Origin: Myxococcales bacterium
GTDB lineage: Bacteria > Myxococcota > UBA796 > SXON01
Length of the DNA stretch: 64,000 nucleotides
Direction of reading: 5' to 3'
Assembly (NCBI GenBank): GCA_009692585.1
Contig: SHYX01000020.1
Location: 20,561 to 84,560 of the forward strand
The notes below the pieces were generated by a model that saw only the letters and a list, made by a program, of their open reading frames with translations, was not told where the DNA came from and did not search any database. Shown piece by piece: positions 1,888-63,820 of the stretch; position 1 is the stretch's first letter, and every line of letters begins with the position of its first letter. A program made the position numbers and the translations under genes.

Positions 1888-1988
1888 GGCAGGCCGTGCC
1901 GCGCTGGTGCCGGCCCCGGTCTTCAAAACCGGTCGGGGCGCTTCGAGAGGGGTTGCCCGGTGAGTTCGATTCTCATGGCCTGCCGCCA
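1888..1988 (+). tRNA. selC: tRNA-Sec (anticodon TCA)
   Basis: This is the selenocysteine tRNA that reads UGA together with SelB and a SECIS hairpin. It is recognised by an unusually long 8-bp acceptor stem (1888-1895 pairing with 1977-1984), the anticodon TCA at 1923-1925 in a CTTCAAAA-type loop, a long variable arm, a T-arm with the TTCGATT loop, a G discriminator and an encoded CCA end. The total length is about 101 nt, as expected for selC and longer than any standard tRNA. Its presence shows that the organism can insert selenocysteine. selA, selB and selD are not in the window. A GC hairpin (1986-1990 with 1995-1999) overlaps the 3' end and may terminate transcription. Confidence 0.93.
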
Positions 1989-18916: not shown

Positions 18917-20909
18917 CTCCGTACACGCGCCGGTACTGCTGCAGATAGCCAAGCACCCGGCGGACGTAGCGCCGGGTTTCCGCGAACGAGATGTTCTCGG
19001 CGAATTCGTCGATCTCGGGCGGCGTGGCGTAGCCACCCAGCCAGCGGCCCACCGCGTCGGCACCACCGTTGTAGGCGGCGATCACCAGCGGCAGGTGCGG
19101 CTGCACCGCGGCACGCTCCCAGCGCCGGGACAACAGGCCCAGCTCGGTGGTGCCGAGCCGTGCGTTGACGCCGGCTCGGTACAGCTCGCTGGCGTGGAAG
19201 CCGGGGACGCGGTCCTTGGCCAGGTCCGCCGCCAGCTTGGGCATCAGCTGCATCAGCCCCCGCGCGCCCGCGGGTGACGTCACCGAAGGGTCCAGGCCGC
19301 TCTCGGCGTTCATGACGGCGTACGGGAGGAGCGCCGGCAGGCCGTACTCGGCGGCGATGGCCCCGACCGCGCCGTGATGCGGGCGCACCAGACACGCTTC
19401 CAGCGCGGCGCGGTCGGCCTTGTAGGGGCAGGCGAGCTTTTTGGCGGCGCCATAGTCCTCGGCATCGACGAGCAACCATGCCATCGCGATGGCCGTGCGC
19501 TGGTCCTTGGCGGCGTCGGCGACCGCGCCCGCCAGGAGCGGCCGCGCCCAGTCGGGCATCCCCGCCTCCACCAGCAACGTCGCGGTCGCGACGCTGGGGC
19601 GGGCCGCCACCCACGCGGCCGGAAGTTCGGGCCGCGCCGCGGGGGGAGGGGAGGGCCAGCTTCTGCCCAGGCGCATCGCGGCGTACCAGGCGTAGCCGCT
19701 GTCGGGGTACAGGCTCAGCACCTGTTCGTACCCCTTGCGGTCCCCCTGGATCCGCGCCCGCCAGTACCGGGCGGCCACAGCCAGGTCGATCTGGGGCCAG
19801 GCACCCAGCAGTTTTTCCATCTCCGAGGCGGCCTCGATGTCGCGACCGAGCCGGTGCATATCCCAGGCGCGGAACCAGCGGGCGTCCCAGGCGAACTTCC
19901 CGGCAGGTCGGGCGTCGAGGTAGGCCCCGAGCGCGGTCACGGCGCCGACCAGGTCCCCGGCGTCGTGCTTCATGTAGCCGGGCTTCCACGCGGCTTCGTC
20001 GGCTTCCTTGGACTCGGGGAAGGCCCGGCCCAGCTCGGCGTAGAGCAGCTCGGCGGCAGGATAGTCCCCGGCACGGGCGGTGGTCAGCGCGTACTGGAAC
20101 AGCGTCGCGGGCCGCTGGCGAGCCGCGGGCAGCGCGTCGTACGCAGCGCGGGAACGGGCGTAGGCCTTGGCCTGGAAGAGCGCGTCGGCGAAGAAGAGGC
20201 GTTCGGCCTCGGTGTCGAGGGGCTCGACGGCGGCGACCGCGTCCAAGAGCACCAGGGCGTCGCCGGCCTGCTTCTCGCCGAGGAGGGCCCGCGCGCGCTC
20301 CATCATCAGGGCCCGTCCCTCGGGGGTACCGCTGTCGGGCACGGCCGCGCCCATGGCCGCGAGTCGTTCGGCGGCACGCTCGGCGAACGGGTGACTCGGG
20401 GAGCGCGCCCACACCGCGCGATGGCTGTCCAGCGCCGCGTCGCGTTCGCCGCGATCCTCGGCTCCGCGAGCCAGCCAATAGCGCGCTTCCGGCGCCACCG
20501 AACGAATTTCGGTCAGGGCGCGCAGGCCGTCCCGTGCGTCGAGCGACCGGCCGGCGCTGACCAGGGCACGCCCCCGAAGCAGCTCCTCCTGCGAGCCGGG
20601 GAGCGCACAATTCTCCAGGGCTTCAGCCGCGCCGGCGGGGTTGTCCAGCGCCAGCAGCGCTTCGGCCCGCACGACATTGGCATACGGCCGGAGTTGGTGG
20701 CCCGTCACCCCGGCGGCCAACTCGGCCGCACGGGCGCTGTCGCCCAGGCGCTGCAGGCAGCGCGCCGCCGCAAGGCGTTCCACGTCCTTGTCGGGCGCGG
20801 GTAGCGCGACGACGACCCCCCGGCAGTCGCCCGTGGCCATGGCTTCGCGCCAGGGGGCGGCGGTGGCCGCCAGTGGGACCAGAAACATGAGCGAGAGGCC
20901 GATGACCAT
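18900..20909 (-). CDS. Second Slt70-like lytic transglycosylase
   Basis: This 669-residue periplasmic lytic transglycosylase has a signal peptide (about 1-18, ending ATAA). A long helical TPR-like region (about 20-500) is followed by the SLT catalytic domain at about 525-650. Catalytic Glu536 lies in VMNAESGLDPS; the GARGLMQLMP and VIAAYNGGADAV motifs follow. It has the same architecture as the protein at 3132-5336 but differs in sequence and neighbours. It lies 10 bp after a WD40-like gene and overlaps the small gene at 18503-18916, so the three probably form an operon. Confidence 0.9.
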   Translation of the reverse strand: MVIGLSLMFLVPLAATAAPWREAMATGDCRGVVVALPAPDKDVERLAAARCLQRLGDSARAAELAAGVTGHQLRPYANVVRAEALLALDNPAGAAEALENCALPGSQEELLRGRALVSAGRSLDARDGLRALTEIRSVAPEARYWLARGAEDRGERDAALDSHRAVWARSPSHPFAERAAERLAAMGAAVPDSGTPEGRALMMERARALLGEKQAGDALVLLDAVAAVEPLDTEAERLFFADALFQAKAYARSRAAYDALPAARQRPATLFQYALTTARAGDYPAAELLYAELGRAFPESKEADEAAWKPGYMKHDAGDLVGAVTALGAYLDARPAGKFAWDARWFRAWDMHRLGRDIEAASEMEKLLGAWPQIDLAVAARYWRARIQGDRKGYEQVLSLYPDSGYAWYAAMRLGRSWPSPPPAARPELPAAWVAARPSVATATLLVEAGMPDWARPLLAGAVADAAKDQRTAIAMAWLLVDAEDYGAAKKLACPYKADRAALEACLVRPHHGAVGAIAAEYGLPALLPYAVMNAESGLDPSVTSPAGARGLMQLMPKLAADLAKDRVPGFHASELYRAGVNARLGTTELGLLSRRWERAAVQPHLPLVIAAYNGGADAVGRWLGGYATPPEIDEFAENISFAETRRYVRRVLGYLQQYRRVYGDAPGA

Positions 20910-60878: not shown

Positions 60879-61079
60879 ATGATTCGCCTTTCCCTCCTGA
60901 CGTTGATGCTTTCCACGGTAATCGCTTGCGACCAAGGAGAGTCCGACGGTGTGGACGACAAGTCGGGTGACACGGGCACGCGGCGGCCGTACTTCTCGAA
61001 GATGATGGCGATGACGGCTACTTACACCGCGAGTCTGTCAACCACAGCTCCCCAAAACTCCACTCTCCCACGCCGGTGA
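60879..61079 (+). CDS. Short lipoprotein, probably truncated
   Basis: This 66-residue product has a good lipoprotein signal (LTLMLSTVIAC) and an acidic DQGESDGVDDKSGDTG linker as in the larger lipoproteins of the window. After that the sequence loses character. A second frame reads EDDGDDGYLH at the same place, as if an Asp-rich Ca-binding region was cut by a frameshift. The 3' end overlaps the convergent gene by about 60 bp. It is probably a degenerate lipoprotein gene. Confidence 0.45.
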   Translation: MIRLSLLTLMLSTVIACDQGESDGVDDKSGDTGTRRPYFSKMMAMTATYTASLSTTAPQNSTLPRR

Positions 61080-62121
61080 ACCCGGCGTAGGCGCCGAAGG
61101 GAGCGCCGGGAGGGGCGGGTACCTCCAGGACGGCGGCGCCGTCGAGTTCGACCACCAATAGACCATCCGCGGCGTGCACCTGGACTGCGTGCGGACCGGT
61201 GTCAAAATCGGGGAGCGAGGAGCAGGCGAGGGGTGCGCCCACGTCCCCGTCGGCCACCAGGGACACGGTGGGCGAGGGGGCGCAGTCGTTGCCGTCGCCG
61301 GGCAGGGTGTCCACCACGATGGACCAGCCCGGGAGGCCAGTCCCGGCGCAGGCCTCCGGGCCGAGGCCGAGGCCACAGCCCCCGCCGACCACCCACTCGG
61401 TCGCGCGGGTGCTGTCGAGCAGCGTCAGGGTGAACCCTGCCCCGCGGCCGGACACGGTGAACGGGGCGTCGAAGAGATCGCTGTCGAACACGAGGTAGGC
61501 ATCGAAGGCGCTCCCGAGGTCGGGCCCCAGGGAGGTGGTACCGGTCGTCTGGTCCACGCTGGCCTGCCCCTCGACGCGCCACACGTCGGCCACGAGGCTC
61601 TCCACCGCCCAGGCGCCGTCCTGGCAGGCGTAGATGGAGTTCTCGCCGGTGTTGCCGCAGGCGTCGGTCAGCACCAGTTCGAACACGTGCGGGCCGGGCC
61701 AGCGGGTGTCGGCCGGCCACTCCGTCACCACGCGACCGCCGTCGTCCACCGTGGGGCTGGCCAGGAAACCTACCCGATTGGACCGCCACTCGCCGACCAG
61801 TTCGGTGGCGGGCGTCTCCTGGTCGGCGACCATCGCCTTCAGCTCGAAGGGCAGGGTCACGTCCAGCACCGCCCCGGGCGCCAGGACGGCGGGCAGGCTG
61901 GGGTGGCTGGCCGACCAGCCCTGACCGACGAGTTCGACCGCGGACAGGGTCAACGGCGCGCCGCCCCGGTTCTGCAACGCGAGGATGCGTGTCTCCGAAA
62001 CACAGACGCCATCGAGCTAGACGGCCTCGGGGACCACCTGCGCGTGCGCAGGCTCGACGGGCGCCGGCTCGGGCGCGACGCCGTACTCGATGCAGCCGAG
62101 GAGCCCGACGAGCGATCGCAT
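61018..62121 (-). pseudogene. Lipoprotein gene with in-frame TAG after codon 34
   Basis: From ATG 62121 the frame reads a lipoprotein signal (MRSLVGLLGC), a Pro/Glu linker (APEPAPVEPAHAQVVPEAV), then TAG at 62019-62017, and continues without any other stop for 333 codons. The continuation begins LDGVCVSETRILALQNRGGAP and has the strand pattern of ASH/Hydin-like domains (LTLSAVELVGQGWS), followed by a second beta-rich domain with several Cys. So one gene is split by a nonsense codon. It is either a pseudogene, a readthrough product or a sequence error. It lies 8 bp after the putative selenoprotein gene. Confidence 0.7.
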
Positions 62122-62129
62122 CAGGAAGG

Positions 62130-63182
62130 CTACCCCCCTCCGCCCGCGCCCGCCTCTGGTTTCCCGAAGGCCCAGGACACGCCCGCGGCCACGCTCAGCG
62201 GTTGGGACACCGATGCATCCTCGTCGGTGTGGTGCACCGCCGCCCATACCGGTACCCGCGCGGTGAGCTGCACCGACACCTCGGGGGACAGGGTGTACAG
62301 CGCGCCTGCCGACGCCGAGACCGAAGCGCGCCCGCCGTAGGACTCCCCCTGCCACAACTCCTCGCCCTCGTAGGCGGCGTCGGCGAGCAGCCAGGCGTAG
62401 AGTTTCGGGGTGACCGCGAGGGTCGGACCGGCGCTCCCCGCCACCACCCGCGGGGCACGGTACCCGTTGGCCCCTTCGTAGAGCGGCAGGCGCGAGGACA
62501 CCGTGGCTAGCGCACCGAACCGACCGAAGCGAAACACGGCGTCGACGCTCACGAGCGGGTCGAAGGTGCCGGTGCCGAACTGCATGTGTTGGTGTTTTTC
62601 CCCCAGTTCGGTCAGCGCGAACGGGTCGTCTTCGGTGTGCCCGACCGGAATCGAGCTGCCGACCGAAGGGGTCAGCACGACGCTCCCCACCATCAGCGTG
62701 CGCTTGAGCCAAAGGCTGCCGTCGACGGGACCGAACAGGACTTCCTCACGATGGTGGATGTCATCGTAGGGCGGACTGTAGGGCGCACCATCGATGGTGT
62801 AGTCCACGGTGATCGAGCGCACGTCGAACGGCAGGCCCCCCGCGACGGCCCAGCCGTTGCCGAGTCCGGCGCTCAACAGCGCGTCCAGACGGAACCAGGT
62901 GATGCTCTGGTCGTGCCAATGCTCGGGGATCTGAGTGGTCGCGCACAGGAGCGGGTCCACCTCGGGGCAGGCGGCGACGTGTTGGATGCGGGTGGTCTGC
63001 GCGACGAATTGCACGTCGAGCCGAAAGCGGCCGGCGTCAAGGTACGGGTGGGCGCGGGAGCCTCCAACCTGGAGGTTTGGATTGCTTCACCCGGGTCACG
63101 TGGCGTGGGCGGGAGGCGCCATCACCGCGTAGATCATCGCGCCGACGACGGCGCGGAGCGCGGCGGAGCGCAACGCCGCCAT
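62130..63182 (-). CDS. Putative exported UxxU selenoprotein, barrel-like
   Basis: From ATG 63182 the frame encodes a signal peptide (AVVGAMIYAVMAPPAHA), then Thr-TGA-Pro-Gly-TGA (TGA at 63098-63096 and 63089-63087), then SNPNLQVGGSRAHPYLDAGR and about 300 residues with no other stop. The total is 350 residues if both TGA are read as Sec. The mature part alternates short beta strands and Gly/Asp turns (FRLDALLSAGLGNGWAV, TVSSRLPLYEGANGYRAPR) as in outer-membrane beta-barrels. Without readthrough the signal peptide would be lost, since the next start is GTG 63014. A SECIS-like hairpin follows the second TGA, and selC is in the window. ATG overlaps the thioredoxin-fusion stop (TGATG). I cannot exclude a pseudogene. 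Confidence 0.6.
63061..63089 (-). promoter_or_regulatory. SECIS-like hairpin after second in-frame TGA
   Basis: On the minus strand, the TGA at 63089-63087 is followed by 11 nt and then CCTCC-AGGTT-GGAGG (63075-63061), a perfect 5-bp stem with an AGGTT loop. The E. coli fdhF SECIS also has an upper hairpin 11 nt after its UGA and an AGGU-containing loop. A bulged U in the stem, important for E. coli SelB, is not seen here. Confidence 0.5.
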
Positions 63183-63820
63183 CAGCGGCCGCGCTTGCGG
63201 TCGATGGCCGCGATCGCCGCGGCGGGGGCGCTCCCTTCGTACAGCTTCTTCCCGTCCGGGCCGACCACCTTGTACCAGGGGAGCCCCTCCGCGAACGCGA
63301 GGTGCTGCGCGACCACCGGCAGCGCGAACGAGGCCTTGGCATCACCCGCGTCGAGCCAGACGATACGCGCCGAGACGTCGCGCTTTCCGGTGATGTAGGT
63401 GGTGAGCAGCGCGGCGCCCGCGTGGCAGGGCGCGCACCAGGGCGCCCCGAAGTCGAAGATGGTGTATTTCCCGCCGACCGGCGTGAGCTCCACGCGGTCG
63501 CCGTGAGAAATCGTGACCACATCGAGCCCCTTGGCGGCGGCCCACGGGTCCACCGCCACGTGCAGGCCGGCCGGGCACGCCGCGACTTCCGATAGGCTGA
63601 CGATGCCGTACCCCGCCGACTCCAGCGCCTTGCCGAGGCTTGCGGAGGTGAGGGGGCCGGACGCTTCCATGCATGCCTGATTCTTCTCGAACGACGCTGC
63701 TACAGAGGTCACCATGGGAACCGACTGAAGTGCGGTCACGACCTTCTGCGCGCAGCAGGGGTCGTCCATGCCCGAGACGGACGCCAGCCACGCGGCCGAC
63801 GCGGTGGTGATGAACAGCAT
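63182..63820 (-). CDS. Secreted HMA-like / thioredoxin-domain fusion
   Basis: This 212-residue exported protein begins with a signal-like hydrophobic segment (MLFITTASAAWLASVSG). An N-terminal domain of about 60 residues resembles heavy-metal-associated (HMA) folds: GMDDPCCAQKVVTAL instead of GMTCxxC, and GKALESAGYGIVSL near its end. The C-terminal domain is a thioredoxin with FGAPWCAPCHAGAALL, active Cys129 and Cys132. It likely reduces disulphides or diselenides in the periplasm or passes metal/selenium-linked thiols. The stop overlaps the start of the putative selenoprotein, so the latter is a likely partner. The -10 box is exactly 6 nt before ATG 63820. Confidence 0.78.
   Translation of the reverse strand: MLFITTASAAWLASVSGMDDPCCAQKVVTALQSVPMVTSVAASFEKNQACMEASGPLTSASLGKALESAGYGIVSLSEVAACPAGLHVAVDPWAAAKGLDVVTISHGDRVELTPVGGKYTIFDFGAPWCAPCHAGAALLTTYITGKRDVSARIVWLDAGDAKASFALPVVAQHLAFAEGLPWYKVVGPDGKKLYEGSAPAAAIAAIDRKRGR

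Follow-up and report, generated by a model that had tools for sequence, protein, structure and literature searches.

The 64,000-nucleotide stretch of Myxococcales contig SHYX01000020.1 analysed here (forward-strand positions 20,561 to 84,560; hereafter the window) carries on its minus strand a gene that very probably encodes an outer-membrane channel protein with two selenocysteines (Sec, U in motifs) at its exposed start. By comparative criteria it is a UxxU selenoprotein gene, accompanied by a thioredoxin partner, a hairpin resembling a selenocysteine insertion sequence (SECIS) and a tRNA-Sec gene. Its features are as follows.

62130..63182, minus strand: putative UxxU selenoprotein gene, 350 codons, two in-frame TGAs taken as Sec (U29 and U32) from translation and comparison
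63102..63182, minus strand: putative signal peptide, residues 1–27, ending PPAHA, with a probable cleavage site; from sequence reading
63096..63098, minus strand: first in-frame TGA (TGA1), codon 29, candidate Sec29; from sequence reading
63087..63089, minus strand: second in-frame TGA (TGA2), codon 32, candidate Sec32; from sequence reading
63061..63075, minus strand: SECIS-like hairpin CCTCC-AGGTT-GGAGG, 11 nt after TGA2; covariation in relatives
62166..63026, minus strand: predicted beta-barrel (residues 53–339) resembling COG4313 outer-membrane channels; from a structure model and fold matches
63182..63820, minus strand: partner gene, MerP-like HMA domain plus thioredoxin (WCAPC); from domain search, model and sequence
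1888..1988, plus strand: tRNA-Sec gene; ARAGORN and Rfam RF01852 (1888–1984, 65.8 bits)

Translated from an ATG at 63182 to position 62130, the gene reads MAALRSAALRAVVGAMIYAVMAPPAHAT-U-PG-U-SNPNLQVGG..., in a frame interrupted by the two TGAs and otherwise open, with ~310 beta-rich residues after SNPNLQVGG. The pair follows a threonine and lies directly behind the likely signal-peptide cleavage site. The first-pass annotation of the window had described such a frame (signal peptide, Thr-TGA-Pro-Gly-TGA, then a long stop-free protein), and translation bears it out on the minus strand, which that annotation left unstated; the plus-strand reading of 62130..63182 was rejected, as it has an in-frame stop and yields no exported protein. 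The open reading frame list places the gene start at 63014, past both TGAs, for a product of 294 amino acids. The TGA pair is more than chance, because both codons align with cysteines of full-length homologues and 75 other distinct genes repeat the two-TGA motif.

A search of 5.8 billion proteins, in which the 7996 candidates sharing most words were scored, returned at least 102 homologues of the selenoprotein. Among the 102 listed, 26 carry CxxC-x-N-P/A within their first 70 residues; the remaining 76 lack the motif region, their first 80 residues showing a start downstream of it, and annotation thus often shortens members of this family. None of the 102 has the N-P-x-L/I/M stretch without a CxxC before it. 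CxxC-type homologues at the TGA positions were the check set beforehand, and the 26 proteins supply them; with Cys at both positions, comparison settles the reading in favour of Sec at each, as far as sequences can speak.

The forms of the motif were also read from DNA. A species-level scan (one genome per species, one peptide pattern) gave 49 loci, which read through TGA as 34 UxxU, 5 CxxU, 6 CxxC and 4 with Cys at the second position only. Searched by profile at E ≤ 1e-15, the phyla to which genomes G012, G001, G037 (a Poribacteria record) and G030 (an Acidobacteria record) belong yielded 96 loci, taken best first (30 of 66 places in the G001 phylum, 30 of ~117 in the G037 phylum); 95 had a hidden Markov model (HMM) match, 89 reached the motif (UxxU 63, CxxU 16, CxxC 10) and 6 others were dropped. 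With duplicates removed, 107 distinct genes comprise 75 UxxU, 16 CxxU, 12 CxxC and 4 second-Cys-only forms, and none is UxxC; the loci are best matches, at most 30 per search, and these counts are not unbiased frequencies. L030/L135, with an extra in-frame TAG, was retained in the set. In 24 chosen full-length forms, aligned with Sec written as Cys, no variation is seen at the two motif positions or at the N and P after them.

On a tree of 108 rows both TGAs stand together in 76, and the label changes nine times at position 1 and three times at position 2, CxxU accounting for six changes; the tree was built by a quick method without a mixture model, carries a long-branch warning and is blind to gain versus loss, and label-change counts alone are taken from it. 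Of the 32 genes that lack TGA at position 1, 28 have Cys there. That position 1 is the one to vary alone fits a SECIS placed for the second UGA, and the asymmetry (first position alone Cys in 16 of 107, second alone in 0 of 107 with the other still Sec) offers a natural experiment on how a single SECIS might act on two UGAs. The four second-Cys-only loci (L033, L036, L041 and L045) form a small clade with QATC or RATC at the motif and a thioredoxin downstream in frame.

The tRNA-Sec gene at 1888–1988, already named in the first-pass annotation, is found by both ARAGORN and Rfam RF01852. Across genomes tRNA-Sec tracks the TGA forms of the gene. Hits at or above the Rfam cut-off come from 38 of 39 TGA-form genomes in a first round and from 29 of 30 further picked ones in a second (67 of 69 overall; the 36 matching genomes of the second round were picked by choice and are not all there are). 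Genomes with CxxC copies give such hits in 1 of 6 cases in the first round (50.5 bits, cut-off 47) and in 2 of 6 in the second. G111 and G139 are the two clear CxxC exceptions with tRNA-Sec, and both retain LPVG as in the Sec forms. Three of the four second-Cys-only genomes have tRNA-Sec, one of them, G036, also holding a UxxU copy. The tRNA-Sec model is not fully specific, with 5 of 14 control genomes over the cut-off. At E ≤ 1e-60 SelB is found for 31 of the 39 TGA-form genomes, two of which (G017 and G023) score under the curated cut-off, versus 1 of 6 CxxC genomes; of the window's near relatives, G002 and G003 have it and G001 has none at 1e-60. Most of these records are metagenome-assembled genomes (MAGs), and absences of SelB or tRNA-Sec are therefore weak evidence.

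The 5-bp hairpin lies where it had first been noticed, 11 nt past the second TGA (63075–63061, with TGA2 at 63089–63087). The bacterial SECIS (bSECIS) rule, as given in section 5 of PMC13188914, asks for a loop of 3–9 nt with G in its first two positions, a stem of 4–16 bp, a spacing of 16–37 nt and an energy of −7.5 or lower. The loop, stem and spacing of the window hairpin fall within these limits; its bare stem has −7.3 kcal/mol versus the −7.5 limit, and −8.4 as a 27-nt fold. In all 62 non-Poribacteria TGA-form genes, the window included, the loop of the best rule-conforming hairpin lies 16–18 nt past the second UGA (57 at 17), and 49 of the 62 reach −7.5 kcal/mol or lower, compared with 23% of synonymous recodings (60 per gene); among all TGA-form genes 53 of 92 reach that energy. 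The first UGA lies ~25 nt from the loop (26 as scored), inside the 16–37 nt range, so that both UGAs could share one element.

Compensatory changes in 20 relatives support the hairpin. The 40 TGA-form rows (L001–L049 plus the window) were split by hand by pairing register into 20 used, 11 of the window's clade and 9 dropped (L035, L038, L040, L044, L046 and L047 for a shifted or bulged register; L037, L039 and L042 as Poribacteria). In the 20 relatives of one register 95.7% of cells pair, a selected figure owing to the hand-split registers, and in 17 cells both sides of the pair are changed, where shuffles average 4.6 and none of 500 reaches 17; shifting the partner strand lowers pairing to 41–56%. 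One pair, at the third codon positions of Leu and Gly, alternates between CG, GC, GU and UA across relatives, and such switches are coordinated silent changes. The window's own clade of 11 has a nearly invariant stem and no covariation signal. Folding compared with synonymous recoding gave mean z-scores of −1.56 for UxxU (n = 35, 12 with p < 0.05), −1.61 for CxxU (n = 5, 1), −0.52 for CxxC (n = 6, 1) and −0.24 for second-Cys-only genes (n = 4, 0), single-sequence comparisons on related rows that are weak evidence.

The body of the selenoprotein is predicted to be an outer-membrane barrel of ~12 strands, closest to COG4313 channels, which refines the initial description of an exported beta protein: beta-rich it is, with a predicted fold that matches COG4313-like structures. 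Its nearest known counterparts are COG4313/PF13557 (Phenol_MetA_deg) channels, for example Pput2725 (PDB 4rl8), and FapF (5o65), at 12% identity. PF13557 matches are sparse (2 of 24 members at E ≤ 0.01; the window protein, P0001, has none at E ≤ 1), so the family is at most a distant branch of these channels, its own marks being a UxxU/CxxC-x-N-P start together with two invariant stretches, IHHR and HQH. A sequence search of the PDB with P0001 gave four matches at chance level (best E 0.17), which were rejected. Six histidines (H68, H90, H143, H144, H197 and H199 in window numbering) are invariant in the 24 chosen full-length members; by the strand order of the model they would face the extracellular side of the barrel, possibly as a second ligand site. 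The N-terminal segment of Pput2725 is a plug that closes the pore, folded into the barrel from its periplasmic end; the N-terminal segment of the window protein has a pLDDT (predicted local distance difference test) below 50 in a model whose barrel does find matches.

The partner gene lies upstream, its TGA stop overlapping the selenoprotein ATG by one base (TGATG). It scores 30.4 bits for PF00403 (HMA; cut-off 24.8) and 15.5 bits for PF00085 (thioredoxin), under the cut-off of 23.5; its model (pLDDT 91.7) is matched by Foldseek to thioredoxins and to MerP and ZntA N-domains. We therefore find in it both halves of an HMA-thioredoxin protein, an HMA domain and a thioredoxin fold with CxxC. W-C-x-P-C and a later L-P are invariant in 17 aligned partners, while other partners depart from this, with WCAAC at L014 and WCAGC at L025, and an HMA domain is found at E ≤ 0.1 in 11 of 17 partners scanned, 13 of the 17 having been chosen as HMA-type. 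At L012, L013, L021 and L022 the partner is instead a lipoprotein-like thioredoxin with Cys/His pairs in place of HMA, and those of L012, L013 and L021 contain a CxxC(H/N)P...CxxCHPDL stretch.

Sequence comparison shows a barrel–thioredoxin partnership outside Poribacteria: 64 of 77 distinct non-Poribacteria genes have a thioredoxin beside them or fused to them (46 upstream, 18 downstream or fused). These counts come from an HMM built from these same partners and run on same-strand frames from −1500 to +2300 nt; a search with the window partner alone had missed 10 of 50 loci, of which a broader search regained two, one being cut by a contig end. A precomputed thioredoxin domain is present in 5 of the 102 listed database homologues. 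The other neighbour families common to at least 6 of 50 loci look like shadow frames, bar one; one such family, in 6 loci, reads like a Ser/Thr kinase.

Both ends of a barrel of this kind should face the periplasm, which would place a C-terminal thioredoxin and the N-terminal Sec pair on one side. The explanation that we favour, and hold with considerable confidence as a whole, is an exported Sec-Pro-Gly-Sec barrel whose two UGAs are both decoded as Sec and whose channel or cargo state is set by thioredoxin. Decoding would be achieved most simply by the single SECIS 11 nt past the second UGA. The Sec pair would sit on the segment before the first strand, at the periplasmic mouth, matching the plug segment of Pput2725; a periplasmic thioredoxin, which comes from the overlapping upstream gene here and is joined to the C-terminus of the barrel elsewhere, would reduce or load it and thereby set the channel's state or that of whatever cargo is bound, perhaps a soft metal or metalloid. 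From the conserved association of barrel and thioredoxin, and from the gene fusions, we infer a selenol/diselenide pair that is coupled to thioredoxin and lies at the channel's periplasmic mouth; the thioredoxin neighbour supports a redox role for the pair. Periplasmic placement is likewise inferred, and gating and a soft-metal or metalloid cargo are guesses.

Several observations weigh against this explanation. Redox coupling is without support in Poribacteria, where a thioredoxin neighbour was found for 0 of 30 genes by the HMM search above, and 13 of the 77 non-Poribacteria genes also have none (two at contig ends). TGA-form genomes G030 and G615 have no tRNA-Sec over the cut-off, three CxxC genomes do, and 8 of 39 TGA-form genomes show no SelB at 1e-60. 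The window hairpin taken alone does not exceed chance (z −0.85 versus synonymous recodings), its bare stem of −7.3 kcal/mol falls just short of −7.5, and in Poribacteria 4 of 30 genes pass the hairpin rule against 11% of controls, with no clear SECIS found there; Poribacteria may use another SECIS element. Three of the 12 CxxC genes and all four second-Cys-only genes pass the rule as well, with control rates of 19% and 41%; the hairpin alone therefore does not separate the forms. The Sec segment is predicted with a pLDDT below 50, too low for the model to place it in the pore.

The main rival, plausible though short of probable and compatible with the redox reading, holds that the Sec pair binds metal: the HMA-thioredoxin partner would pass a soft metal or metalloid to the selenols at the channel mouth, for export or uptake, with the thioredoxin domain merely keeping the ligands reduced. 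Metal handling by the pair is possible on several counts, namely the HMA domains in 11 of 17 partners (13 chosen as HMA-type), the MerP and ZntA N-domain among the fold matches, the CxxC(H/N)P...CxxCHPDL stretch in other partners, the six invariant histidines of the 24 chosen members and the existence of a UxxU metal-binding selenoprotein family, NF041115 (PMC13188914, Table 1). Yet the partner scores 12.9 bits against the NF041115 cut-off of 95, the fused forms have thioredoxin and no HMA was seen in them, a plasmid collection gave no match at 1e-5, and no other neighbour family common to at least 6 of 50 loci points to metals, the neighbours not having been annotated singly.

It is improbable that only the second UGA is regularly Sec, with the first a leaky or regulatory stop that ties full-length product to selenium supply as a partly selenium-responsive switch. 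The second UGA is the nearer to the hairpin, and its distance is the usual one, and CxxU occurs in 16 genes (six label changes on the tree) with UxxC in none; yet the two TGAs are retained together in 76 of 108 tree rows, a first position without TGA is Cys in 28 of 32 genes, and the ~25 nt from first UGA to loop fall inside the bSECIS range of 16–37 nt (PMC13188914, section 5). A pseudogene, a sequencing error, or genuine stops followed by a start further down (294 amino acids from 63014) can be set aside almost entirely on the comparative evidence for the family. In favour of such a reading, the nearest database homologues are annotated as starting downstream and a neighbouring gene has an in-frame TAG; against it, 75 other distinct genes show the same TGA pair at the two Cys positions, the TGAs come after a piece resembling a signal peptide, and tRNA-Sec tracks the TGA forms.

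Prx-like thiol:disulfide oxidoreductases carry a UxxU motif inside a thioredoxin-like domain. The window motif sits instead on a barrel, with thioredoxin as a separate or fused partner bearing CxxC. What they share is the redox motif, UxxC/UxxU in the Prx-like proteins (PF00578; PMC13188914, Table 1). Table 1 of that 2026 inventory of 119 prokaryotic selenoprotein families gives UxxU in Prx-like, NF041115 and FmdB alone, and its outer-membrane Sec proteins are of MtrB/PioB and TonB-receptor types; no double-Sec channel family appears in the table. NF041115 shares two Sec in UxxU and a metal theme (Table 1); its model, in contrast, spans 74 positions and is not a barrel, and the window selenoprotein does not match it. 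The MtrB/PioB barrel (NF041027) and the FCYXU type of TonB-dependent receptor (NF049945) are likewise outer-membrane proteins with Sec, but belong to other families with one Sec each as listed there (PMC13188914, Table 1).

NCBIfam has no match for 24 family members, and the family is not among the new deep-Sep families in the portions of that source available. Nor do the available portions of PMC13188914, PMC9312934, PMC2398784, PMC12013277, PMC8318568 and PMC4493636 describe it, and by title and abstract the open-licence literature on selenoproteins with Myxococcota, Poribacteria or beta-barrels contains no description, subscription papers and preprints lying outside that search. This is apparently a new selenoprotein family, broad and undescribed, in an unusual setting: two Sec residues on a predicted outer-membrane channel that is partnered by a thioredoxin. 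More tentatively, and we think rather doubtfully, the family may represent outer-membrane channels, widespread as a class, that are gated by redox state. Two selenocysteines, both decoded through one SECIS, would form a diselenide/selenol switch on the N-terminal plug of the pore, and a periplasmic thioredoxin dedicated to it, often one that binds metal, would set the switch; selenium would then control permeability or metal transfer at the outer membrane.

Matches occur in 66 of 84 genomes of the G037 (Poribacteria record) phylum, 25 of 195 of the G012 phylum, 62 of 377 of the G001 phylum (G012 and G001 being of myxobacterial type) and 10 of 396 of the G030 (Acidobacteria record) phylum, five of these last over the C-terminal part only; the plasmid collection has none at 1e-5. 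In the Poribacteria-record phylum 51 of the 66 matching genomes have two copies (for example G637, G630 and G665), and at the loci read such pairs often combine one two-TGA and one single-TGA gene (UGAU plus CPAU). Named myxobacterial strains carry the CxxU form (L012, L013 and L021), which opens the family to experiment. Locus L010 (CAMAWH010000105.1), titled a Klebsiella pneumoniae MAG, has a relative of the deltaproteobacterial-type gene, and its label is probably wrong. Downstream of the selenoprotein gene in the window, a minus-strand gene (61018–62122) has an in-frame TAG after VPEAV, either an assembly error or a mark of a decayed gene; L001 and L002 have sense codons at this position.
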